From positions 58,488 to 122,487 of the IMG/VR virus record IMGVR_UViG_3300028364_000018: a DNA stretch of 64,000 nucleotides. One strand, given 5' to 3'. This DNA is from a virus. The position numbers and the translations under genes are program-made. The notes beneath the pieces are model-generated. The model saw only the letters and a program-made list of their open reading frames with translations. It was not told the DNA's origin and made no database searches. Shown here piece by piece: positions 11,414 through 62,610 of the stretch (the stretch's first letter is position 1; each line of letters opens with the position of its first letter).

Positions 11414-13657
11414 GTGAAAGCCGTACAACTACTCATTGAATCCCGGCTTCCTCCAGAACTGCGCGATTATAACCGGGAGTACACAGCTAAGTCCATAGGG
11501 AATCTCCTATCGGACTTGGCAGTTTCGTACCCAGATAAGTACGACGAGGTGAGCAGGCTTATCGGTGACACTGGGCGTAACAGTAGTTACTGGCAGGGTG
11601 ACACCATCAAACTGTCTGACCTGAAGCCCGTATTCGACAAAGAACCGTTGTTGGAGCAGATGAAGGCGGAGATCGCGGGCTTACCACGGGATGACCCGAA
11701 GTTCGAGGACCAGCGCCAGGCTGTATGGATCCGGTACAACGAGGAGATGCAGAGGCTCACCAACGAGGCAGGAGCCACGTCCGATAACAGCATCGCACGA
11801 GCTGTATTGAGCGGTGCGCGTGGTAAACCCGACCAGATGAAGATGATGCTGACCGCCCCCGGACTCTACTCCAACAGTAAGGGTGTAGTTCCGTTATTCA
11901 TCAGTCATAGCTTTGGAGAGGGCCTGCGCCCCGCTGAATACCTGGCTAGTACCTACGGAGCACGTGATAGTATTGTGAAGATCAAGACCGCTACGGCGAA
12001 AGGTGGCGATTTTGGGAAGCAAATTGCGCAAACTGCTGCTACTACGATAGTTACGACGAAAGACTGCGGTACAGACAACGGGTTGGACTTGGATTTGGCA
12101 GACCCCTCGCTGAGAGGCCGGGTGCTGGCTAAGGCCGTGGGTGGGCTGGGAGTCGGAACTGTTTTAGATCGAAGTGCCTTACAACAGTTGGAGAAGGAGA
12201 AGGTCACGACCGTTATAGCGAGGTCGGCCATGACCTGTAATGCCGGTACTGGTGTGTGCCAGCAGTGCATCGGTAAGTTTCACGATCAACGCTTTCCTAA
12301 GATAGGGGAGGCAGTGGGGGTAACAGCGGCTAACGCATTAAGCGAGCCCGTCACTCAAGGCAGCCTTGGATGTCTAACGGACGATACACTGGTTCGTATG
12401 ACAGACTTCACTACCAAAAGAATCGACCAGATCAAGGTCGGGGACATGGTGTTAGGCTCGGATGTAAAGGCCAGGACCTTCCCGGTCAAGGTCCTACATG
12501 TGTGGGATAAAGGACTCCAACCGGTCAAGCGTCGGGTTTTCACCCAGCCGGAGCTATCAGTGGACTGTACTGACGACCATATCATGCTCTTGTCGGATGC
12601 ACAGGGTGTTCTCAGCAAACAACCAGCTGGAACCCCGGGAGAGGTGTTGGCCCCCATAGTCGGGCTTCCACACCCTCTACCCAGAACAGCTGTGGAAGAC
12701 CTAGGCCTTCTTCACTGCATGGACATCAGCGTCGATCACCCGGATGAGCTGTTTGTCCTAGCCAACGGTTTGATAGTTAAGAACAGCAAACATTCGGGAG
12801 GCCAGACAACAGGTAAAAAAGAGTATTCGGGCTTCAACGTCATCAACCAACTTGTGCAATCCCCAGAGGAGTTCCCAGACAGAGCCCTAGTCTCGGAAGA
12901 GAGCGGTACAGTCAGCTCCGTAGAAGAAGCACCCCAAGGTGGGTTCATCGTGACTGTTGGAGAATCCCAGCATTACGTACCCCAGGGGTATCCGGTGATG
13001 GTTAAGTCCGGCGACCGGGTTGAGGCGGGTGATCAGCTCAGCGAGGGCCTGATAGACGCGGGTGACATCGTACGCCTTCGTGGTCTAGGTAGCGGACGGC
13101 GTTACTTTGCGGATCGCCTACACCGTGTACTGGAAGACAGTGGATTCGGAGGGGATAAACGTAATGTGGAGATCGTAAGTCGGTCTGTCATTGATCATGC
13201 TCGTGTCGAGGATGACCAGAACCTACCCGGGACACTCCCTGACGATCAGATCAGCTACAACCGCCTTAGCCAGACCTACACCCCACCAGCGTCCTCCAAA
13301 CGTCTTCCAACAGCAGATACAGTCGGCCAATACCTACAGAGCCCGGCTCTGCACTACTCGATTGGAACCCGGCTAAGCCCCTCCCAAGTAAAACGCCTCC
13401 AAACATCGGGCTATACCCATCTTGAGGTATCTCCGGAAGAGCCGGGGTTCCGTACGGAGATGCAGAGACTTCGGACATCCACACAGACCAACCCCGACTG
13501 GTTGGCCCGGCAAGGCGCTTCGTACCTCAAGAGTAATTTACTGGAAGGGGCGGTCCGAGGACAGGACACCAATATACAATCTAACATTCATTTTGGACCG
13601 AGGCTTGCATTTGGTAAGGATTTCGGTAAGAATACGGCAACTACAGGAGAATTTTAA
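11414..13657 (+). CDS. RNA polymerase beta' subunit, C-terminal half, with intein
   Basis: 747 aa starting at GTG. Before and after a 138-residue intein the sequence follows bacterial RpoC: SGARGKPDQM (cf. SGARGS..Q), SFGEGLRPAEYLASTYGAR (F-loop/bridge helix), KDCGT plus TCNAGTGVCQQC (all four zinc-site-2 cysteines: 218, 275, 282, 285), IGEAVGVTAANALSEPVTQ (trigger helix). After the intein come SKHSGG, then MVKSGDRVEAGDQLSEG and DIVRLRGL, and a DWLARQGASYLKSNLLEGAV end. The catalytic NADFDGD half of beta' and beta itself are not in this window, so the subunit is split as in jumbo phages with multisubunit polymerases. It may be virion-packaged or made in infection. Confidence 0.88.
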   Translation: MKAVQLLIESRLPPELRDYNREYTAKSIGNLLSDLAVSYPDKYDEVSRLIGDTGRNSSYWQGDTIKLSDLKPVFDKEPLLEQMKAEIAGLPRDDPKFEDQRQAVWIRYNEEMQRLTNEAGATSDNSIARAVLSGARGKPDQMKMMLTAPGLYSNSKGVVPLFISHSFGEGLRPAEYLASTYGARDSIVKIKTATAKGGDFGKQIAQTAATTIVTTKDCGTDNGLDLDLADPSLRGRVLAKAVGGLGVGTVLDRSALQQLEKEKVTTVIARSAMTCNAGTGVCQQCIGKFHDQRFPKIGEAVGVTAANALSEPVTQGSLGCLTDDTLVRMTDFTTKRIDQIKVGDMVLGSDVKARTFPVKVLHVWDKGLQPVKRRVFTQPELSVDCTDDHIMLLSDAQGVLSKQPAGTPGEVLAPIVGLPHPLPRTAVEDLGLLHCMDISVDHPDELFVLANGLIVKNSKHSGGQTTGKKEYSGFNVINQLVQSPEEFPDRALVSEESGTVSSVEEAPQGGFIVTVGESQHYVPQGYPVMVKSGDRVEAGDQLSEGLIDAGDIVRLRGLGSGRRYFADRLHRVLEDSGFGGDKRNVEIVSRSVIDHARVEDDQNLPGTLPDDQISYNRLSQTYTPPASSKRLPTADTVGQYLQSPALHYSIGTRLSPSQVKRLQTSGYTHLEVSPEEPGFRTEMQRLRTSTQTNPDWLARQGASYLKSNLLEGAVRGQDTNIQSNIHFGPRLAFGKDFGKNTATTGEF
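12371..12784 (+). other. Mini-intein in the beta' trigger loop
   Basis: Residues 320-457 of the beta' protein. It begins with Cys (CLTDDTLVRM, block A), has a block B with Thr-x-x-His (VDCTDDHIMLL), a block F (CMDISVDHPDELFVLANG) and ends ..LIVKN before Ser+1. At 138 residues it has no room for a homing endonuclease. Removing it restores a 16-residue trigger-loop segment of exactly the length of E. coli GEP...HIGG, with the loop His retained. The penultimate residue is Lys rather than the usual His, so splicing chemistry may be atypical. Confidence 0.88.
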
Positions 13658-15138: not shown

Positions 15139-15837
15139 ATGAATGATGTCATGAAACCAGAACTGCTAGAAACCAACCTTATCAAGATCTGCACATTAGG
15201 CAGCCGTGCCGCGGTACAGAACAGAACTCCGGGATACTACCAACACGTAATCAGCGGTTGCGACTGGGCTGGGTCTGACTACAAGCTACCTAACACCCCG
15301 CCAGATAGCTTCAACGCCCACGTTATGTTGGGTATCACCCCTGCGGGTGAGTTTGATATCCTACATATGGATCAGACCGCGGGCTCAGAACGCCAATGGG
15401 TCGTGAATTGTGTCCTGGACGACCATAAACGCTTGGGAGGCACCGCCCTTGCCAGCGACTTCGGAGCCGGAGTGGTTTCTAATGAGCTACTAGGGAAAGT
15501 TCTGGACCCCGCACAACATACGATCTTTAACTACTGTGGAGCAGACAACCCGGAAGTGCAGGACTCTGAGTTCGGACCCCGTCATGTTAGTATCAACCGC
15601 AATGCATCCCTTACTGGGTTCTTCGATGCCATAAGAGCAGGGCGTATCCGCTGCTATGATTGGGACGAGGCTGAGGCACTGCTGAGTGACTGCCTGTGTA
15701 TGTCCCACAAAGAGACTCCGGCCTTCCGTTATGTCAGAACAGGGTCGGAACCAGTTAACACCATCCACGCCCTGAATTTCGCTTTCACTTTGGGCAAGAT
15801 CATGCTAGGGGAATACCCTAATTACAAAAGGTACTAA
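15139..15837 (+). CDS. Stand-alone terminase nuclease domain paralogue
   Basis: 232 aa, co-linear with residues about 365-590 of the large terminase encoded at 60745-62610 on the other strand. Shared landmarks: IKICTLG, SGCDWAGSDY, VMLGITPAG, HKRLGG.ALASDFGAG, INRN, RIRCY.WDEAE.LLS, FRY.R and NFAF.LGKIMLGE. Two metal-binding acids of the RNase H-like nuclease are kept (Asp42, Asp107). The third position, Asp-Asp in TerL before LHA, is Val206-Asn207 here, so the copy may be catalytically impaired. There is no ATPase domain. A role as a nuclease decoy, regulator or structural component is open. Confidence 0.85.
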   Translation: MNDVMKPELLETNLIKICTLGSRAAVQNRTPGYYQHVISGCDWAGSDYKLPNTPPDSFNAHVMLGITPAGEFDILHMDQTAGSERQWVVNCVLDDHKRLGGTALASDFGAGVVSNELLGKVLDPAQHTIFNYCGADNPEVQDSEFGPRHVSINRNASLTGFFDAIRAGRIRCYDWDEAEALLSDCLCMSHKETPAFRYVRTGSEPVNTIHALNFAFTLGKIMLGEYPNYKRY

Positions 15838-19182: not shown

Positions 19183-20310
19183 GTGAACAACATAGGTAGA
19201 CTTAAAGCTGCGCAGTTACTAAAAGAGGCCAAATCGCCCAAGATTGATGGTATGACAGGTGCTGCCAAGCCTAACCTCTCCGCTATTCGCCCAAATGCTG
19301 AAGACTTGCCTGGCACAGATAAACAGTGGGTGAGCCCTGCTCCAGGTGGGGAGTTCTCAAAAAAGAAAGAAGTGAGCCCCCAAAAGTTCTTGGGGTCTTA
19401 CTACGGAGATAATCTTAAAATTGAACAAGAGAAGGCGAGAACCTACGCAGTTAAGAACAACCTTCCTTGGAAAGACAACCAGTGGACCACTCCCGGTTCA
19501 TCCGCGTCTGTACCTATGAACTTCAGCGACAAGCCGTTTGCAGGCGCCTCACCCCCGTATGCTCTAATACGCGGCCCAGGCAGTCCAAGAATCGTAATGC
19601 CTACAACCAATCAGAATATAAACCCTCTGTTCAGTTACGAAAACGGCCTTCCCGAGGAACGACCTATGAGTCTTACATCTAAAGGTGTCTTGGGGCATGA
19701 GTTGTCGCATGTTATGTACCCGTTTGAGAGAGGGGACGTGGAAAGAACGCCCAACCGCGTCTCACGCCCGTGGCGGGCGGCTATGATGAATTTGGCGGAT
19801 AGACGGGCGGTACTATCTGAGCGGAGGATGTACCCAGAGGTAAGTTCCTTTGAGTTCACCCCACCCGCCGCTGCCATCCAACGACACCTCTACAAAACCA
19901 CTGGGAAAAGGTTGGAGAGCCCAGAAGACTATGATAAGTGGATACAAAGTATGGAGGGCGTTGGTGAGTCTAAGAGCTGGCAGGATCCGCTACCAACGGA
20001 GCTCAGGAGATGGCTACGCTATAGAGAGAATATAAAATCGCAACCTATGCTGGACTGGCGCAGGGATATGCGGTTAAATAATATGGACAATACTATGAGA
20101 CACATCATCCCAGGTATTGTGCAGAACCAGCGTCCTAGTATGCGACCTAAACACGCGTTTATTAATAAAACAAGAATGAACAAAATGAACAACACAGAAA
20201 AATCAGCAGCCACGCCTTGGGAAGTCTATAAACGTAAAGAGCTAGAGAAGGAGCTAAGTCAGTACCAGAAGCTAGCAGCTGGTAATATGTTACGTCACTT
20301 AGTATTTTAA
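19183..20310 (+). CDS. Tagged head-region protein with HExxH metallopeptidase motif
   Basis: 375 aa from a GTG, opening MNNIGRLKAAQLLKEAKS. Residues 169-180 read VLGHELSHVMYP, a textbook HExxH zinc-protease helix (His172, Glu173, His176). No certain third ligand was identified; Glu or Asp in FERGDVERT is a candidate. The C-terminus carries an internal tag-like segment (MNNTEKSAATPWEVYKRKE at residue 335). If real, this is a protease delivered with the capsid. The motif is short, so the enzyme call is moderate. Confidence 0.5.
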   Translation: MNNIGRLKAAQLLKEAKSPKIDGMTGAAKPNLSAIRPNAEDLPGTDKQWVSPAPGGEFSKKKEVSPQKFLGSYYGDNLKIEQEKARTYAVKNNLPWKDNQWTTPGSSASVPMNFSDKPFAGASPPYALIRGPGSPRIVMPTTNQNINPLFSYENGLPEERPMSLTSKGVLGHELSHVMYPFERGDVERTPNRVSRPWRAAMMNLADRRAVLSERRMYPEVSSFEFTPPAAAIQRHLYKTTGKRLESPEDYDKWIQSMEGVGESKSWQDPLPTELRRWLRYRENIKSQPMLDWRRDMRLNNMDNTMRHIIPGIVQNQRPSMRPKHAFINKTRMNKMNNTEKSAATPWEVYKRKELEKELSQYQKLAAGNMLRHLVF

Positions 20311-29792: not shown

Positions 29793-29995
29793 TGAGCTTG
29801 AAGTACGAGCAATACCGAGCCCTTCATGCTACTCAAAAGTTATTGAGAGCACTTAATCTCGGCGAGCACGGGGCAAGTCCGGAGTTACAGGAGATGGCAC
29901 GGCGTTGTCTCCGACATTACCCTTTTCTATCCAGGAAAGGTGAGCCACTATTTAGTCAGGACGACTTTGAGTGTCTGGACTTGGAGGACGGATGA
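29792..29995 (+). CDS. BPSL0761-like small protein
   Basis: 67 aa. YRALHATQKLLRALNL followed by ARRCLRHYPFLS matches the small BPSL0761-type family (Arg-Ala-Leu..Thr..Leu...; Leu-Arg-His-Tyr-Pro). These proteins occur in proteobacteria and their mobile elements; function unknown. TAATG and ATGA overlaps with neighbours. Confidence 0.6.
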   Translation: MSLKYEQYRALHATQKLLRALNLGEHGASPELQEMARRCLRHYPFLSRKGEPLFSQDDFECLDLEDG

Positions 29996-30399
29996 ATAAT
30001 AATGATATACTTATAGCGTCTAGGCTCTTAAAGAGCGCCCTTACCGCCTCAGAGCCATTGGATGACCCGGCCTACTTTGAGCTCGGGCGAAGGTCCTTCG
30101 AAGGCGACAATCGCCGGTTGCAGATACTGAACGGGCAGGTCGTTCCGGATCCTCCGTCTAGGTGGGAAACGGCTCTACGAGCGTTGGCGGGAGCCGGTAT
30201 AGGAGGGGTTACTGGCAATATGTTTGGTAGGATGTCAGACGACCCGGACTTACAACTGTTATCCACGCTGGTGGGGGCCGGAGTAGGCGGGGCTTTGGGG
30301 CAACGTGGATCTCATCTACCGAAGGCTCGACAACAACAGGCTGCGGCGGATTACCTGCGACATCTTCACTCCTTAAAATATCAGCAGGAAGAACAATGA
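29992..30399 (+). CDS. Tagged glycine-zipper protein
   Basis: 135 aa starting at the ATG overlapping the previous TGA. N-terminal tag variant MNNNDILIASRLLKSALTAS. Two glycine-zipper segments, AGAGIGGVTGNMFG and LVGAGVGGALGQRG, could pack as a membrane hairpin. Ends in a Gln/Ala-rich helix and ATGA overlap with the next gene. Confidence 0.55.
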   Translation: MNNNDILIASRLLKSALTASEPLDDPAYFELGRRSFEGDNRRLQILNGQVVPDPPSRWETALRALAGAGIGGVTGNMFGRMSDDPDLQLLSTLVGAGVGGALGQRGSHLPKARQQQAAADYLRHLHSLKYQQEEQ

Positions 30400-31235: not shown

Positions 31236-32044
31236 TGCAAATCCTAGACATCAATCTCCAACCGGCCTATGGCCAGCGTCAGGCGCTGGTCCGTTGGAGC
31301 TCTGATGTCGCGCTGGAAGCGCAGAACCCAGTCTACCACATCTACCGCTCTCCGGATGGTGCGGGTGACTGGGAGAGGGCTAATACCGATCCCGTAGACG
31401 CCCTAGAATACCTTGACACCAACTTCCATTTCAACAGCCGGCTGACGGTCCCGCACTACAGGGTTCTGGCAGTCCTACCTAATGGGGATATGATCGACAG
31501 CCCAACCAAGGGCCTATATCAGGACATGAGCCGTCAGGAGTACGCAGCGTGCTCCTACATGATACGACAGGAGTACAAGCAGATACGCCACGATGGATGG
31601 AAGATCCTACACTACATACCGCTTACCCGAGGGGAGATCCAACCAGGCTGGGACGGCACTACCGGACAACTTCTAAAGGACTGCCCTGGAGAAGACGACG
31701 GGTATGGTCAGAAGTACGTAGGCGGATACCGCGACCCATTCTACACCGTACTTCACCCGGGAGACATGGGGCCTATCATCAAGCAACGCAAGGATGATGG
31801 TATTGGTGTGTTTGACCAGAACAAGATTACAGTCCGAATGCTGGCGTTCCCCCAACCCCAACCTGGGCACCTCATTGTACACCCCTCCACTGATAACCGG
31901 TGGATGGTGACAGAGGCGGTCAAGCCATTCCTCTTTAAAGGGAACTACCCTATAGCGCACGCCTGTCAGTTGGAGCTACTCCGTAGAGAGAGCCCTGCCT
32001 ACCGCTTGCCCATCCCCGATCTTTCTACTTTGAAATTACCATGA
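31235..32044 (+). CDS. Neck-region protein with fibronectin-III-like N-terminus
   Basis: 269 aa. The first ~90 residues follow the fibronectin type III pattern (ALVRWSSD, VYHIYRSPDGAGDWE, YLDTNF, PHYRVLAVLPNGD). The remainder is a mixed domain with conserved-looking GPIIKQRKDDGIGVFDQ and HPSTDNRWMV. Located between connector-like and tail-terminator-like genes; likely neck or tail-completion protein. Confidence 0.5.
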   Translation: MQILDINLQPAYGQRQALVRWSSDVALEAQNPVYHIYRSPDGAGDWERANTDPVDALEYLDTNFHFNSRLTVPHYRVLAVLPNGDMIDSPTKGLYQDMSRQEYAACSYMIRQEYKQIRHDGWKILHYIPLTRGEIQPGWDGTTGQLLKDCPGEDDGYGQKYVGGYRDPFYTVLHPGDMGPIIKQRKDDGIGVFDQNKITVRMLAFPQPQPGHLIVHPSTDNRWMVTEAVKPFLFKGNYPIAHACQLELLRRESPAYRLPIPDLSTLKLP

Positions 32045-55259: not shown

Positions 55260-55281
55260 AACGCGGGATCAGCGCGTTTTT
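55260..55281 (+). terminator. Intrinsic terminator between convergent genes
   Basis: AACGCG (55260-55265) pairs with CGCGTT (55273-55278), followed by T's to 55281. It overlaps the last codons of the reverse-strand gene, so it may serve the fibre gene on the plus strand and weakly the reverse gene. Confidence 0.6.
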
Positions 55282-57728
55282 GACTTCAGAGCAGGCTCCT
55301 CAGGCTCCTCCCAAATACCGGGCTTAACGCCGGCCCCGTAGTAATTACAGATAAAGCGTTGGCCCTCCACTCCAGTTGTGATCATCTGCCCCTCCAGCAG
55401 AACGTCCCCGGCCAAATCCGTCAGTTCCATCACAAGGTCCTGAGTCCGGATCCCCACCTTCTTAGGTAGCTTCCGAAGATCGATAACCATCCGACCCCTG
55501 CGTATGTCCCAGAGAAAGAACCTTTCCACATCCTCAGCCTTCACCTGAGACAACACGCTTTCCAGCACCTCGTAAGGGCGTTGGCTCGCAGGCCAGTTAC
55601 TGAGGTCCGAGCACTTACGGACGATCTGTTGTCCCTCTTCGATCAGAGACGACTCGTAGCAGGCCCGCCGCGCAGGCTCCTGCACCCAACTCTCGCCCCG
55701 GGTCAAGGCCGGTACTGCCATACGCAGGAGGGCGTTAAGAGTCTGGGCCGCACGATCCAGCGTCTCGTATTTACCCCTGGCAAAACTCAGACCCTTATCA
55801 GTCAAAGCTACGATGGGGTTAGCCAAGTCCTTGAGCTGAGCATCCTTCATGCCCTTGGTATAGACCGGATAACCACGCACACCGCTGGTTTGTGTGTTCC
55901 TGGCGTTCTGTCCCCAACTTATGGGTTGAACCTGCCCTAACCCTCTAAACACCCGTTCGATAACACGAGTGTTCCAGCTGGTATGGAGCACACGGATAGG
56001 CTCCACAGCCCAGCTCTGATGCCAGCGCCCGACCAAGCCCAGGATCATCGCCACCAAGTCCGCCAAGTCCGGCGTTAGGTCCTGGTGAAGGTGCGGCTCC
56101 ACCAACCCAGACTGAAAGCACTGCAACTCCCGGGTATCCGGATGCCACGGTACTACCCCGTTATCCAACACACCCTCACCTACATAGAAGTCTGGGTGCC
56201 AGAAGTGATTGCGCAATCCGCTGAATCCCATGAAAGCCAGTCCGTACTGCTGTTCCAGATCCGCCAGGTTCTTCCTTGTCCAGTGTAGGAGTGGTCCGGC
56301 CTTGTCAGGCGCGAGCACCCTTGCTGGGCGAACGTCTGGTTTGTTCTCTGTGTTTAGTAGATGATCCGCCAGCTTCTTACCGGTCTCCAGCATATGCTCG
56401 GGAATGAGCAGCTGGCGCTCGCCCGCGCCCACATCGATCTTGAGGCGGATGTAGCTACCGACAGATTCCGGAAAGGACACACGAGATTCGGGTGTCCAGG
56501 TGAAGTTGGTCAGCGCCATGTTCTCCCCTGTGTCGCGGGCTCGACTGACGTAGCCGGAGGATGTCACGAGCACCTCAGACTTAGTGGTGCTAAAAAGACT
56601 ACCCTGCCCAAAACGCTGGTTAAGAACCTGTAGGGATTTGTATCTACCGAGGTTCTGCAGCATACTCTCCACCCGCCCTTTGAACTGTGGGTCTGGGCCT
56701 TGAGCCTCCAGGAGTTGTACGGCAGATACCGGAAGTTGATCGTTCACGGTCAGAGCCCGCAGTTCCTCCAGTACCACATCCAGCGTATTCTTATCCACCG
56801 TTAGCTGTGGGGAGAACAACTGATGGATGGTACGCATCTGCGGCCAGCCTCCGTTTTGAGACAGTACTCGCCCTATATTGGTCACGGCCTGCAGATCGTC
56901 TGTAAGTATCAGAGTCTGACGTCCTTCTCTGTAGGGAGTGGAGGAGCTGATGTCGGTCAAGGCCGCTGTACAGAACTGTCGCCCCTGCAGACCTGTGCAG
57001 GTCTTAGCCGCCTCCTCCGCGCCGGCAAACACCAACCAGGGCCTATCCGTATGCGCTCTCCATAGTCCGGTGTAGGATATGCTGTTTGTCGCGATACTTA
57101 TGAGCCGGGGGTTCGATCCGTCCGCCCTACGGACTACCAGCTTATCCCATGCGTGCGGGAGGTAAAAATAGGGAGTGACGATCCCCGCCTGTCCGGCTGG
57201 CCACTGCAGATCATGTCCCAGGACCTTCAGGGCCGACACCAACTCCTGCATACGCCGTGGTCCCAAGGGTATGAGCGTATGTCTATCTATTTTAAGGTCT
57301 ATCTCTTGGTTTTGGACGTAGCGCAGGGCCTTGGTGGTCGCCAGGCAGACTGTATGGGGATCGACGTCGGTCATGATGTCGAATACCTGTCGATAAGCTA
57401 TGTAGGTCTCCGCCAGTTGCTCGATCTCCCGGTACTCCGGTGCTTCTGTTAGGTGTAACACCCTCTGGCGTAGATACTGCAGTACCTCTGTGAAAGTCTG
57501 AATGGTGCTGACACCCCTAGTGCGCTTGTGCCACACGAGTAGCTCGACTGCACTCCCCGCATGAAAAGAGGAATGAGGAGAGTAGCATACGACGGAGGAT
57601 GGGCCGACACGCATCAAACCCGTGCCACCAAGCTCCACCTTATTGTCCACCACCGGGTATGATGGGAGGTCGATTAAGGCAGATGCAGGTGCTAACTCAA
57701 TATAGGGTCTGATACTTTCAAAGGTCAT
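55269..57728 (-). CDS. 819-aa protein of unknown function
   Basis: Large reverse-strand protein, no firm family. Residues about 40-90 (VCYSPHSSFHAGSAVELLVW) and about 230-300 (WLVFAGAEEAAKTC, then TLILTDDLQAVTNIGRV) are faintly like the CHC2-derived and Toprim parts of primase-helicases, but zinc ligands and Toprim acids are not convincingly present. The C-terminal half contains helical and strand-rich regions with many Trp/His. Own leaderless-type promoter. Divergent from a candidate structured RNA. One of only two minus-strand genes; could act in replication, transcription or packaging. Confidence 0.55.
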   Translation of the reverse strand: MTFESIRPYIELAPASALIDLPSYPVVDNKVELGGTGLMRVGPSSVVCYSPHSSFHAGSAVELLVWHKRTRGVSTIQTFTEVLQYLRQRVLHLTEAPEYREIEQLAETYIAYRQVFDIMTDVDPHTVCLATTKALRYVQNQEIDLKIDRHTLIPLGPRRMQELVSALKVLGHDLQWPAGQAGIVTPYFYLPHAWDKLVVRRADGSNPRLISIATNSISYTGLWRAHTDRPWLVFAGAEEAAKTCTGLQGRQFCTAALTDISSSTPYREGRQTLILTDDLQAVTNIGRVLSQNGGWPQMRTIHQLFSPQLTVDKNTLDVVLEELRALTVNDQLPVSAVQLLEAQGPDPQFKGRVESMLQNLGRYKSLQVLNQRFGQGSLFSTTKSEVLVTSSGYVSRARDTGENMALTNFTWTPESRVSFPESVGSYIRLKIDVGAGERQLLIPEHMLETGKKLADHLLNTENKPDVRPARVLAPDKAGPLLHWTRKNLADLEQQYGLAFMGFSGLRNHFWHPDFYVGEGVLDNGVVPWHPDTRELQCFQSGLVEPHLHQDLTPDLADLVAMILGLVGRWHQSWAVEPIRVLHTSWNTRVIERVFRGLGQVQPISWGQNARNTQTSGVRGYPVYTKGMKDAQLKDLANPIVALTDKGLSFARGKYETLDRAAQTLNALLRMAVPALTRGESWVQEPARRACYESSLIEEGQQIVRKCSDLSNWPASQRPYEVLESVLSQVKAEDVERFFLWDIRRGRMVIDLRKLPKKVGIRTQDLVMELTDLAGDVLLEGQMITTGVEGQRFICNYYGAGVKPGIWEEPEEPALKSKTR

Positions 57729-57786: not shown

Positions 57787-58258
57787 AGGGTGTTTTTTAT
57801 GCAATAACAGAGGGTTCTGCGTTATATATACTTGAACCCCCTCAAAAGGATTCAAACAAGGGCGGACGCAACGCCTCTTAGACCCTTTCCACTAGAATGG
57901 TCTAAGCCTCAGAGGGATAAAGCCCCTGTACGGTATACATTGCGCGGACTCGACAGGTGGATGTCGGGGAGGCCACTCATTGAAGTGGTAGGTTGCTCAA
58001 AAGGCAACAAAGGTTCTGACGTTCACGTCGGGGACTCTTGGTGGGATACGTTGACCACCAGCTTTTGAATCGGCGGGGTTTCCCCGTCATCGCTCTCCAC
58101 CCAGGGAGCGTGCAGCGCACTAGCTACCTTTACTGGTAGCCTTCCCTGGACTTGTACGACCAGGGGTGAAATGGGTAGTACTATTCGGGAACCTCGGAAT
58201 TCCGGGCGTGCGTTCGCTGGTGGGTAGACCAGTGGACCACGCCCGGACACCCTTTTTT
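57787..58258 (+). ncRNA. Candidate large structured non-coding RNA (~470 nt)
   Basis: No convincing gene, but at least 14 consecutive local hairpins. Examples: CTTAGACC/GGTCTAAG (57877/57899), CTCGACA/TGTCGGG (57949/57962), GTTGC/GCAAC (57992/58004), TGGTGG/CCACCA (58039/58055), CGGGG/CCCCG (58074/58082), CGCTCTC/GGGAGCG (58091/58104), GCTACC/GGTAGC (58123/58135), CCCTGG/CCAGGG (58144/58160) and a 10-bp TCCGGGCGTG/CACGCCCGGA (58201/58238). AGGGTGT at 57787 is exactly complementary to ACACCCT at 58247, closing the whole element just before a T6 run (58253-58258), as in an RNA ending at its own terminator. A weak promoter (TTTACG/TAACTT) lies just upstream. I found no tmRNA, RNase P, tRNA or group I intron signature. 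Confidence 0.72.
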
Positions 58259-58298: not shown

Positions 58299-58496
58299 AT
58301 GAGTAAACGAAAAGTAAAGAAAGGCCCACTCCCCCACGAGGTAGACGCGGCTTTAAAGATGCTGGACCTAGTTGGTCCATTCGATGCTACGGATTTCGAG
58401 ATCCGTAAGCAAGCCCTTCTACGGAAGGGCGTACAGCTCCGCAATACGCGGGGGTGGAGTTGGACGGACTTTCAGCAGCAGGCCTCCGCCCGCTGA
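58299..58496 (+). CDS. Small basic protein
   Basis: 65 aa, very basic N-terminus (MSKRKVKKGPLP), then a helical part (EVDAALKMLDLVGPFD) and an Arg/Lys-rich C-terminal helix (RKQALLRKGVQLRNTR). The charge suggests nucleic-acid binding. It starts 40 nt after the structured RNA's T-run, behind AAGGAAAGTAAG, and is followed by a long hairpin. Function unknown. Confidence 0.6.
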   Translation: MSKRKVKKGPLPHEVDAALKMLDLVGPFDATDFEIRKQALLRKGVQLRNTRGWSWTDFQQQASAR

Positions 58497-58502
58497 AAAC
58501 CT

Positions 58503-58540
58503 ATGCAGACAGGCCGGGGATATACCCAGCCTGTCTGCAT
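58503..58540 (+). promoter_or_regulatory. Long perfect hairpin after small basic gene
   Basis: 12-bp stem ATGCAGACAGGC (58503-58514) / GCCTGTCTGCAT (58529-58540) with inner GGG/CCC. No T-run follows, so it may stabilise the 3' end or work with the terminator 10 bases downstream. Confidence 0.6.
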
Positions 58541-58549
58541 GGGGGTACT

Positions 58550-58582
58550 ACAGAAGTCGGGAATTCCCCACGCTTCTGTTTT
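58550..58582 (+). terminator. Intrinsic terminator
   Basis: ACAGAAG (58550-58556) pairs with CTTCTGT (58573-58579), enclosing GGGAATTCCC, followed by TTTT. Confidence 0.65.
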
Positions 58583-58604
58583 AGCTACTAGCCCGATTTG
58601 AAGG

Positions 58605-58633
58605 TTGACAACCACGAACAAAACATGCAAGAT
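58605..58633 (+). promoter_or_regulatory. Promoter, leaderless type, for gene at 58643
   Basis: TTGACA (58605-58610), 17-bp spacer, CAAGAT (58628-58633), 9 nt to ATG 58643. It decides the start over upstream TTG 58598 and ATG 58625. Confidence 0.55.
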
Positions 58634-58642
58634 GCACACACT

Positions 58643-59716
58643 ATGAAGCTTCAAGACCAGATTCACGACCAGAACCCCACTCCCATTTTTTACTTAGAGG
58701 AGCAAGGGATACTCCCAGATTTCGCTAAGGACGCCAGTGCCCCTCCAGACGATCTGTCTGACGCGGGTTGGGCGATGCCCGACAAGCGGTTATTCCCCCT
58801 GCATGATAAGTCAGCGACTTACCGTAGTATCGCTTACTTCCACGGCAAAGGCCTATCCAACACCCACCCGGATGTCGCACAGCGTCTTAAACAGGCGGCA
58901 GAGTCCTATGACCTGGTAGAGCACCATGACGTGCTCCGAGACCTATTCCGGGCTCAAGTTAAACAAGCATCTGAGCCTGAAACGCTTTATGCTCTGGCTG
59001 TAAATATGGGGCAGTCCATGGGCGACCAACAGTTCTACCCTATGAATGATTCATTGGAGTTGGAGCTCAGCATGGACATGGTACGCAAAGATGCCTCTGA
59101 AGGACGCCTACCCCTGGAGCTCCAACGTGAGGCATCTCTTGCCCTGTGCAAGCGAGCTTCCGAACTTGGCTACGATCCGCAGGACATCCCGCTTGCTATC
59201 TCCAGCTTGGGCGTACCCCGTGTCCCCAACTACGATCATGCCGATTCGTGCGTCGGCCTCCGCAAACTAGCGGGTGTACCTACAGAAGCGCTGGACATGT
59301 ACCGGGAACTCGTGAAGGCCGCGCGCGCCGACGCAGAGAACATAGGGTCGATGCAGGAAGAGCAGGAGATGGTGGAGAAATACGCGGAGTTGATGTTAGA
59401 GCTCGACCGCAATTGCGGGATCCAGTCCTACGACAACAACGTGGTAGACCCCTACACGTCCTTCTTCTTTGGCACCCCTGTATCCGAGATCAAGACCGCC
59501 GCAGAACAAATGCTGTTCTTGGGTGATACCATGGTACCGATGTGCGCCCTGCAGGCCATCCCGGATCAGAAGCTGGATGTGCGGTTCAGTAAAGTAGCCT
59601 CTCAAGCCATTAAAAGTATGAAGGGTGGTAGCACCTACGACGCCAACCATGCAATTGGGTTGATGAACGAGGCGGATGTTCAGGAATTACTGGATCTGTC
59701 TATCCAATACGGCTAG
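58643..59716 (+). CDS. Helical virion-like protein
   Basis: 357 aa from ATG 58643, chosen because the promoter's -10 box lies 9 nt upstream; longer forms from TTG 58598 or ATG 58625 are possible. Mostly helical, with 'Lys-Gln-Ala/Lys-Ala-Ala' sites (RAQVKQASEP, LVKAARADA) similar to those in the head proteins at 21256 and 23878. Not recognised; perhaps a structural or internal protein encoded outside the main head cluster. Confidence 0.5.
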   Translation: MKLQDQIHDQNPTPIFYLEEQGILPDFAKDASAPPDDLSDAGWAMPDKRLFPLHDKSATYRSIAYFHGKGLSNTHPDVAQRLKQAAESYDLVEHHDVLRDLFRAQVKQASEPETLYALAVNMGQSMGDQQFYPMNDSLELELSMDMVRKDASEGRLPLELQREASLALCKRASELGYDPQDIPLAISSLGVPRVPNYDHADSCVGLRKLAGVPTEALDMYRELVKAARADAENIGSMQEEQEMVEKYAELMLELDRNCGIQSYDNNVVDPYTSFFFGTPVSEIKTAAEQMLFLGDTMVPMCALQAIPDQKLDVRFSKVASQAIKSMKGGSTYDANHAIGLMNEADVQELLDLSIQYG

Positions 59717-60744: not shown

Positions 60745-62610
60745 CTAACCCATGTAAGGATCTGGAACGTGTTGGATCGGGCTGTCAAAGTGTGTGAGTT
60801 TATTCTGCAACTCGCGTTGCAGGCCCTGATCCGGTACAAGCTGCTCACCCAACATTATCTTACCCAGCACAAACGCGAAGTTTGTGGCATGCAACGTATC
60901 GTCAGGCTGTTCCCCGGACCTTAAGTATCGGAAGGTGGTTGAACCCGTCGCGCTGTTCTCACTCTGAGTACGCGTCATGTTGAGGAAGTAACTTAAAAGG
61001 GTCTTGGCCTCCTCCCACTCATAACAACGAATACGACTTTCCTTTACAGCCATAAACAACTTGGTAATCGCTTCATTGCGGTTCAAGCTGAGTTGGTTGA
61101 ACATGTGGTCACCATGTGGTTCGGCGACCGCCGCACTGTTGGGTCCCACGTAGTTAAAGATAATATGACGGCTGGCGCTCAGAGCGCTGGACTCCCGTAG
61201 CAGCATGTTGTAGGCGGCTCCCGCTCCAAAGTCACTGGCAAGGGCGTTCCCACCCAGTCGTCGGTGATCCGCAAGGATGTGGCCTACAATCTCCCGGTAG
61301 CCCATACCAGAGTAACGGCGCATGTGAATGATATCGAACTTCCCGTCGTTGGTGATACCCAACATAACATGGACAGTATAACTCTCCTTGGTATGGGTAG
61401 CCCGATTGTAGTCCGACCCACCCCAGTCACAACCGCTGACAATATACTTGTAGTAACCCTGTGTTTTAGCCTTCTTCTGTACTACATCCTGTGTCCCAAG
61501 AGTGCAGATGCTGATGAGTTCCTGCTCAGTTAACTCCCGGGCACCCTGCTCGGTTGGTATACCCATAACTTCCTGTAAGAACTTGGGGGTGTCGTACTCG
61601 TTGTAGGCATCCCATATCTCCTTCCACTTGACTGGGTCGATTGTGAAGTCCGGTATGATTATCTGAGGGACGTGCAGGCTAGTATTGTATTGCTCGAACC
61701 GACCCTGCATCTCGTGGACAAAGAAGCCAGAACGCGGGTCCAACCTGACCCCGGTCCAGGGGCAGCACAGCCCCTTCTGCTGAATGGCCGCCATTATCTG
61801 CTTCTGGTTCCCGCAGTCCAGGTAACGAGGAGCCCCGGTCTTCGTCCGACCCGGACACCGGATGTGCCAGGTGCCTCTTGAGCCGTTCTGATAGTTGGAT
61901 TCCAAGAATGTATCAATCGTGAGTGACGTGCCGGCTACCAGAAATACAGGCCAATTACTGGCCTTCATCACCTGCTGAACCTCCGGCCAGAGTCCCCCAT
62001 CAAAGCTCTGGGCCTCGTCGATGCTTAGCCAGTCTGTGGTCTTACCACGAGTCTGCTCGGCGGAGGTATAGGCATACACCAGATCGAACACAGCGCCCGA
62101 TGGGTACTCCTTATAATACTGGTTTTGCTTAAACTCTACGGAGCTGACCTTGATCCGACAGTAGCGTTCGAGCTCCATGACCTTTCGGGCAAAAGTCTCC
62201 AACTGCTTATTATGAGGTGCCAAGTACATCATCCTCTTACCCAGAACATGAGCCACCACCAGCTTGAGAGCTGCCAAGGTCGTGGACTTCGCGGCCTGGC
62301 GCCCCGCCCTAACCACGGTCTTGGAACCGGGTACGACTGATGTCATGCTGAACCCAAAAGGGCGATTGAGTAGTGAGAGGGGTTGGCGTTTGTTGTCCCT
62401 ATCTATTATATAAGCCGGAAACATATAAGGAAAAAGCATTCCCAGATTATAGTTGCAAGCTTCAAGTAGTTTGTTCATACTACGAGCAAGATTACGACCA
62501 CCCCTGGGATCTCGTTCCAACACAGACACGCAGGCACCAAGCCTTGACAGAAGTTGTTGGAACTCCCGGTCGGTCTTCATCCTTTGATATAAATCCCAAT
62601 TCTGGCGCAT
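60745..62610 (-). CDS. Large terminase subunit
   Basis: 621 aa. ATPase: Walker A GRQAAKST (103-110), Walker B LSIDEAQ (Asp198, Glu199), coupling motif VAGTS. Nuclease: GCDWGGSDY (Asp395), LASDFGAG (Asp460), and Asp570-Asp571 before LHATNFA, all in the RNase H-like order. A Cys-rich insert (CGNQKQ ... GLCCPW, about 266-285) lies between the domains. It cuts and pumps DNA into proheads. It is on the opposite strand from all other head genes and has a nuclease-domain paralogue at 15139. Confidence 0.93.
   Translation of the reverse strand: MRQNWDLYQRMKTDREFQQLLSRLGACVSVLERDPRGGRNLARSMNKLLEACNYNLGMLFPYMFPAYIIDRDNKRQPLSLLNRPFGFSMTSVVPGSKTVVRAGRQAAKSTTLAALKLVVAHVLGKRMMYLAPHNKQLETFARKVMELERYCRIKVSSVEFKQNQYYKEYPSGAVFDLVYAYTSAEQTRGKTTDWLSIDEAQSFDGGLWPEVQQVMKASNWPVFLVAGTSLTIDTFLESNYQNGSRGTWHIRCPGRTKTGAPRYLDCGNQKQIMAAIQQKGLCCPWTGVRLDPRSGFFVHEMQGRFEQYNTSLHVPQIIIPDFTIDPVKWKEIWDAYNEYDTPKFLQEVMGIPTEQGARELTEQELISICTLGTQDVVQKKAKTQGYYKYIVSGCDWGGSDYNRATHTKESYTVHVMLGITNDGKFDIIHMRRYSGMGYREIVGHILADHRRLGGNALASDFGAGAAYNMLLRESSALSASRHIIFNYVGPNSAAVAEPHGDHMFNQLSLNRNEAITKLFMAVKESRIRCYEWEEAKTLLSYFLNMTRTQSENSATGSTTFRYLRSGEQPDDTLHATNFAFVLGKIMLGEQLVPDQGLQRELQNKLTHFDSPIQHVPDPYMG

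Follow-up and report, generated by a model that had tools for sequence, protein, structure and literature searches.

The window, a stretch of 64,000 nucleotides, covers bases 58488-122487 of a linear virus record of 122,487 bp (G000). Between a gene for an 819-aa protein and the divergently oriented gene for a 65-aa basic protein lies a non-coding stretch of ~420 nt, which follows a phage promoter and is predicted to form a highly structured RNA (Table 1). The first-pass annotation had placed here an ornate, independently transcribed RNA at 57787-58258, closed by a P1 stem and ended by its own terminator; the two neighbours that it described, the divergent 819-aa gene and the small basic protein downstream, are indeed present.

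Table 1. Features of the locus and of a second site with the same promoter class; coordinates are those of the window unless G000 or L134 is named.
Feature	Position	Strand	Details
819-aa protein, divergent from the RNA	55269..57728	-	homologues in relatives
AGGGTGT, annotated 5′ strand of P1	57787..57793	+	upstream of promoter, ~-48
Phage promoter	57800..57835	+	-35-like TGCAAT 57800-57805, 17-nt spacer, -10-like TATATA 57823-57828
Predicted structured non-coding RNA, ~420 nt	57836..58258	+	folding z, pair probabilities, no coding signal
5′ multibranch domain	57849-58071	+	
Long central arm (CTCGAC..GTGGATGTCGGG / TCTGACGTTCAC..GTCGGG), two-hairpin cap	57945..58036	+	local z = -5.3
3′ hairpin series	58072-58258	+	
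Switch-like element	58144..58168	+	CCCTGG/CCAGGG hairpin 58144-58165 overlaps GGGGTG 58163-58168
3′ hairpin, possible intrinsic terminator/attenuator	58201..58258	+	20 bp 58201-58247, spacer CACCC, T6 58253-58258
65-aa basic protein	58299..58496	+	pI 10.4; AAGGA ribosome-binding site
Two hairpins after the 65-aa gene	58500..58582	+	second 58550-58579; z = -8.79
372-aa conserved protein	58598..59716	+	marks syntenic locus in relatives
Second structured stretch	G000:19565-19895 (L134:166-500)		z = -3.63; ends GGGTCACATTTTT, upstream of tRNA-Met
Phage-encoded tmRNA	G000:20110-20506 (L134:711-1107)		full-length Rfam match, 109.9 bits

The genome encodes polymerase β- and β′-like proteins, together with a sigma-70-like factor and a terminase large subunit. 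Both β′ pieces (window 11414-13657 and L005:11257-15600) are split by intein-like insertions; additional matches of the first half to families of phage structural proteins could point to a virion polymerase. An N-terminal leader resembling MNNSEKLQAAQLLKEA recurs in many proteins (window 13657, 14538, 15839, 18363, 19183, 30837; L004:7142) and may be a capsid-targeting or processing signal. An IS607-like TnpA/TnpB pair is accompanied by a second TnpB-like gene (L005:7792-9406; L004:15077-16459), and a full terminase-large-subunit-like gene by a partial second copy (window 15139-15837 and 60745-62610). Intein-like insertions also occur in the terminase genes of relatives (L026, L108, L125, L126).

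That the stretch is without a credible gene is borne out by the codon score, which lies at background in all six frames of 57836-58258; the only notable plus-strand ORF of the interval (78 aa) has no Pfam or PHROG match. The 65-aa ORF scores 0.30, like true genes (0.29) and unlike wrong frames (-0.18), and has no match in a Pfam/PHROG family search. The AlphaFold model of the 819-aa protein is poor (pLDDT 52). As a lead only, some of its homologues (L109:10194-12632, L118:12764-13525) contain a CxxC..CxxxxC motif like that of primase zinc ribbons; L109:10194-12632 has no Pfam match.

The promoter motif came to light through a 26-base match at another place in the genome. Inside the reported interval it reads TGCAAT-N17-TATATATACTTGA (57800-57835), and its -10-like TATATA carries a conserved extension, TACTTGA. 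Five near-identical copies of the motif TG[CA]AAT-N17-TATATATA[CT]TTGA occur in G000, all on the plus strand, the copy at 31254 having a degenerate -35 element; they reach 41-45 bits, and the next best site 17, in a matrix built from these same five sites. The same layout with its 17-nt spacer recurs in the relatives G001, G005, L118 and L125/L126. When two mismatches are allowed, reversed-pattern controls match too and individual two-mismatch sites are not secure; as an exact pattern, the full promoter has no match in viral contigs. From sigma-70 geometry, transcription is expected to start near 57835. A promoter of its own, as would be looked for in a large structured phage RNA, is present as a sequence motif, and makes the annotated independent transcription plausible, although not from 57787.

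At the copy at 19552 of G000, the promoter is followed by a second structured non-coding stretch, a tRNA-Met and the tmRNA; the stretch (G000:19565-19895) has no Rfam match of its own. Two promoter sites of G001 directly precede tRNA genes. Since tRNA and tmRNA genes stand behind it, this promoter class appears able to make stable RNAs. Other sites lead into protein genes by way of short leaders that carry a hairpin and U-tract. The class thus precedes both stable RNAs and messages, and is compatible here with a leader as well as with a free RNA. Strong structure (z -5 to -7) is seen in several of the relatives' leaders behind this promoter. Two related phages have structured leaders of this kind, at L125:9772-9931 and L126:9775-9936 and in L160 and L162; the differences hit unpaired or pair-compatible positions, the two-sequence alignments giving weak structural support.

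Compared with dinucleotide shuffles, a control that the annotation had proposed, 57787-58258 folds well beyond expectation on the plus strand (z = -6.28), and so does 57836-58258, with the first 49 bases removed (z = -6.30, 0/100 shuffles), as would be expected of a new large structured phage RNA; the 3′ part alone gives a z of about -5. The minimum-free-energy fold has 14 hairpin loops, in agreement with the annotated count of at least 14 stem-loops. Helices are predicted at high pair probability, most confidently for the arm at 57945-58036 and the 3′ hairpin at 58201-58247. Folding is strong on the reverse strand too (z = -5.65), so that the direction of the RNA rests on the promoter. In a genome scan of 289 windows of 423 nt, approximate at 14 shuffles per window, the window at 57839 ranked third (z -6.1); a window within a TnpB-like gene (-9.6) and its own downstream neighbour (-6.4) ranked higher; re-tested with 60 shuffles and the same script, 57836-58258 yielded z -4.9. 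The strongest signal of the scan (z about -9.6; G000:35956-36378) lies in the 3′ part of the second TnpB-like gene.

The annotated sequence of ACACCCT followed by T6 holds as regards the six T (58253-58258), but these are six in all, and the first already belongs to ACACCCT. A standard terminator scan identified no terminator at 58258, because the 20-bp hairpin stops 5 nt short of the T-run. For a stem to abut the T-run, an extra closing helix is required, with either 57787 or 58163. In the latter case GGGGTG (58163-58168) is able to pair with CACCCT (58248-58253), placing the stem against the T-run; since GGGGTG overlaps the CCCTGG/CCAGGG hairpin, two mutually exclusive pairings are predicted for 58163-58165. 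Full-fold energies are -182.3 versus -177.5 kcal/mol, the closing stem being 4.8 kcal/mol worse than the competing hairpin. Beyond the 65-aa gene, the second of two hairpins runs into TTTT (58579-58582); on sequence grounds 58550-58582 would be a much better terminator than 58258, and appears to end the unit. Of the terminator attributed to the RNA itself, the U-tract is thus present, but its role is uncertain, as it precedes the coding 65-aa ORF by 40 nt and a better terminator lies beyond. Since this ORF and terminator follow, the whole series from promoter through RNA and ORF to terminator looks like a single unit.

In many relatives, the genes homologous to those of the 819-aa and 372-aa proteins are neighbours, mostly divergent (in tandem in G001), and the gap between them measures 0 to about 100 nt in most. 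In G005 a promoter copy occupies the gap, together with a 91-nt leader that has a hairpin and T6. In L118 the gap is about 1.7 kb long and opens with a promoter-like copy, followed by a hairpin-rich stretch, perhaps 500 nt, without a convincing ORF; the z value of -3.22 was obtained for a 573-nt segment into which the beginning of a small ORF extends. No sequence similarity links the L118 stretch to the RNA of G000, and it has no homologue in the records searched. A candidate 417-nt leader in L161 was rejected, as it has a small ORF inside.

Rfam, whose search the annotation had called for, contains no family that matches the RNA, either at the gathering threshold or with permissive filters to E up to 5; this includes self-splicing introns, tmRNA, RNase P and HEARO. 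BLAST of the RNA against INPHARED returned no homologue. Nor did BLAST and the single-sequence covariance model R1 applied to 41-43 relatives' whole records, or the models R1 and R2 applied to the loci of further relatives; such single-sequence models have a limited reach, and distant homologues could escape them. One R2 match, with E = 0.09, falls at window 29901-30022. A DNA search of 41 relatives gave short matches only (14-22 nt), and the two best were discarded as homologues, that in L078 being a T-run and that in L079 covering 18 isolated nt amid seemingly unrelated sequence. Peptide patterns from the 819-aa protein, the terminase and the 65-aa protein found no relatives, while searches with the polymerase β subunit found 45 viral loci at 30-54% identity, all remote. 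In the genome contigs, the terminase has no relative and polymerase β has one remote match.

Judged by these features, the locus appears to hold an orphan structured phage RNA, either free-standing or an outsized attenuator leader. The reading that we tentatively prefer, and place narrowly ahead of a pure leader, is a structured RNA released partly at 58258, with read-through to the basic protein. It builds on the promoter family, non-coding character, folding, 65-aa coding signal and downstream terminator established above by sequence analysis. A polymerase reading the promoter at 57800-57835 would presumably start near 57835 and produce a ~420-nt, highly structured non-coding RNA that meets the hairpin and U-tract at 58201-58258, and some molecules would extend through the 65-aa gene to the terminator at 58550-58582. 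If GGGGUG (58163-58168) pairs with CACCCU (58248-58253), the stem would abut the U-tract, transcription would stop and the folded RNA would be freed; if the CCCUGG/CCAGGG hairpin holds the shared bases, read-through would allow the basic protein, which may bind this RNA, to be made. The promoter and non-coding leader at this locus in two relatives, G005 and L118, support partial release, as do the second structured stretch and the tRNA and tmRNA genes behind other sites of the promoter class. Against it stand the missing homologue, the failure of the scan at 58258, the 4.8 kcal/mol by which the closing stem is worse, and the other transcripts of this promoter, in which a short hairpin and U-tract lead up to a protein gene.

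Ranked second, and still quite possible, is a 5′ leader of exceptional length that serves the 65-aa gene and perhaps genes further on; it would act in cis as an attenuator or stability element and yield no free RNA. The order of promoter, leader with hairpin and U-tract, ribosome-binding site and start codon is repeated at several sites in the phage and its relatives, and here a good ribosome-binding site and start codon likewise lie 40 nt past the U-tract; the strongly structured leaders of relatives, with paired positions kept between close relatives, point the same way. However, the distance to the U-tract is 417 nt, as opposed to 22-123 nt in most others, and the stretch behind the 19552 promoter precedes a tRNA and tmRNA and is not a protein leader.

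We consider it clearly unlikely that there is no functional RNA at all, the stretch being a chance structure in a non-coding insertion or an element acting at the DNA level, such as a signal for packaging or replication close to the terminase gene. The lack of a homologue, the z value of the reverse strand and the few other windows with similar or stronger signals would fit such an origin, but the stretch lies directly behind a conserved promoter and ranks in the top three of 289 windows. Very unlikely, in turn, is the ornate RNA of the annotation, extending from 57787 to 58258 and closed by P1. AGGGTGT (57787-57793) is indeed complementary to ACACCCT (58247-58253), with a pair probability of 0.95 when the whole interval is folded. 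The promoter lies inside the interval, with its start at ~57835, and AGGGTGT, upstream of this strong motif, is therefore probably outside the transcript, which contradicts the proposed layout; removing this strand also does not lower the folding signal. Flank shuffles match the 3′ end over 7 bp in only 2.6% of cases and over at least 6 bp in 15%, so that P1 is weak evidence. That the RNA is a divergent member of ROOL, GOLLD or another known large class is hardly credible, the likeness to ROOL and GOLLD that the annotation had drawn being one of scale, besides the phage origin and the tRNA and tmRNA genes elsewhere in the phage, while no Rfam match was found up to E = 5 with permissive filters and the tRNA cluster (19.9 kb of G000) is not adjacent to the RNA (116 kb).

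A bolder proposal, which we regard as rather unlikely, extends partial release to a new class of large RNA with a small basic partner, encoded as one cassette of promoter, RNA, ORF and terminator, present at the locus in distant relatives in forms whose divergence defeats alignment, and perhaps one of the earliest transcripts of an RNA polymerase that the phage encodes. With its promoter motif, predicted transcription start, two possible ends and neighbouring basic protein, the RNA is directly testable by expression and probing. The promoter family, conserved in a little-studied lineage with a multisubunit RNA polymerase, also marks further candidate RNAs, among them the second structured stretch next to the phage tmRNA.

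To our knowledge, only a few large structured RNAs of phages have been described, and what they do is not known. ROOL and GOLLD are often encoded near a tRNA island and form a homo-oligomeric cage; both are large ornate RNAs of phages and prophages (PMC12286853). Like them, the RNA described here is large, highly folded and non-coding, and belongs to a phage with tRNA genes. Unlike them, it is shorter, at ~420 nt, has no match to an Rfam covariance model and is followed by a coded basic protein; in contrast to their pseudoknots and covariation model, its fold is a prediction from a single sequence. Nor does it lie in a tRNA island, as the window contains no tRNA and the nearest tRNA/tmRNA cluster is at 19.9-20.5 kb of G000. 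With attenuator leaders and structured 5′ UTRs it shares the promoter, a structured stretch with mutually exclusive helices (here predicted), U-tract, ribosome-binding site and ORF, but it is far longer, has a 5-nt spacer between hairpin and U-tract, and matches no known leader family. The closest promoter systems we take to be the early promoters of the RNA-polymerase-encoding jumbo phages phiKZ and AR9. These promoters are lineage-specific and consist of an AT-rich motif ~10 nt upstream of the start (PMC7598289). The promoter of our phage likewise has an AT-rich motif ~10 nt before the predicted start, in a lineage encoding a multisubunit RNA polymerase; it differs in that a second, -35-like element is conserved at a fixed 17-nt spacing and a sigma-like factor is encoded.
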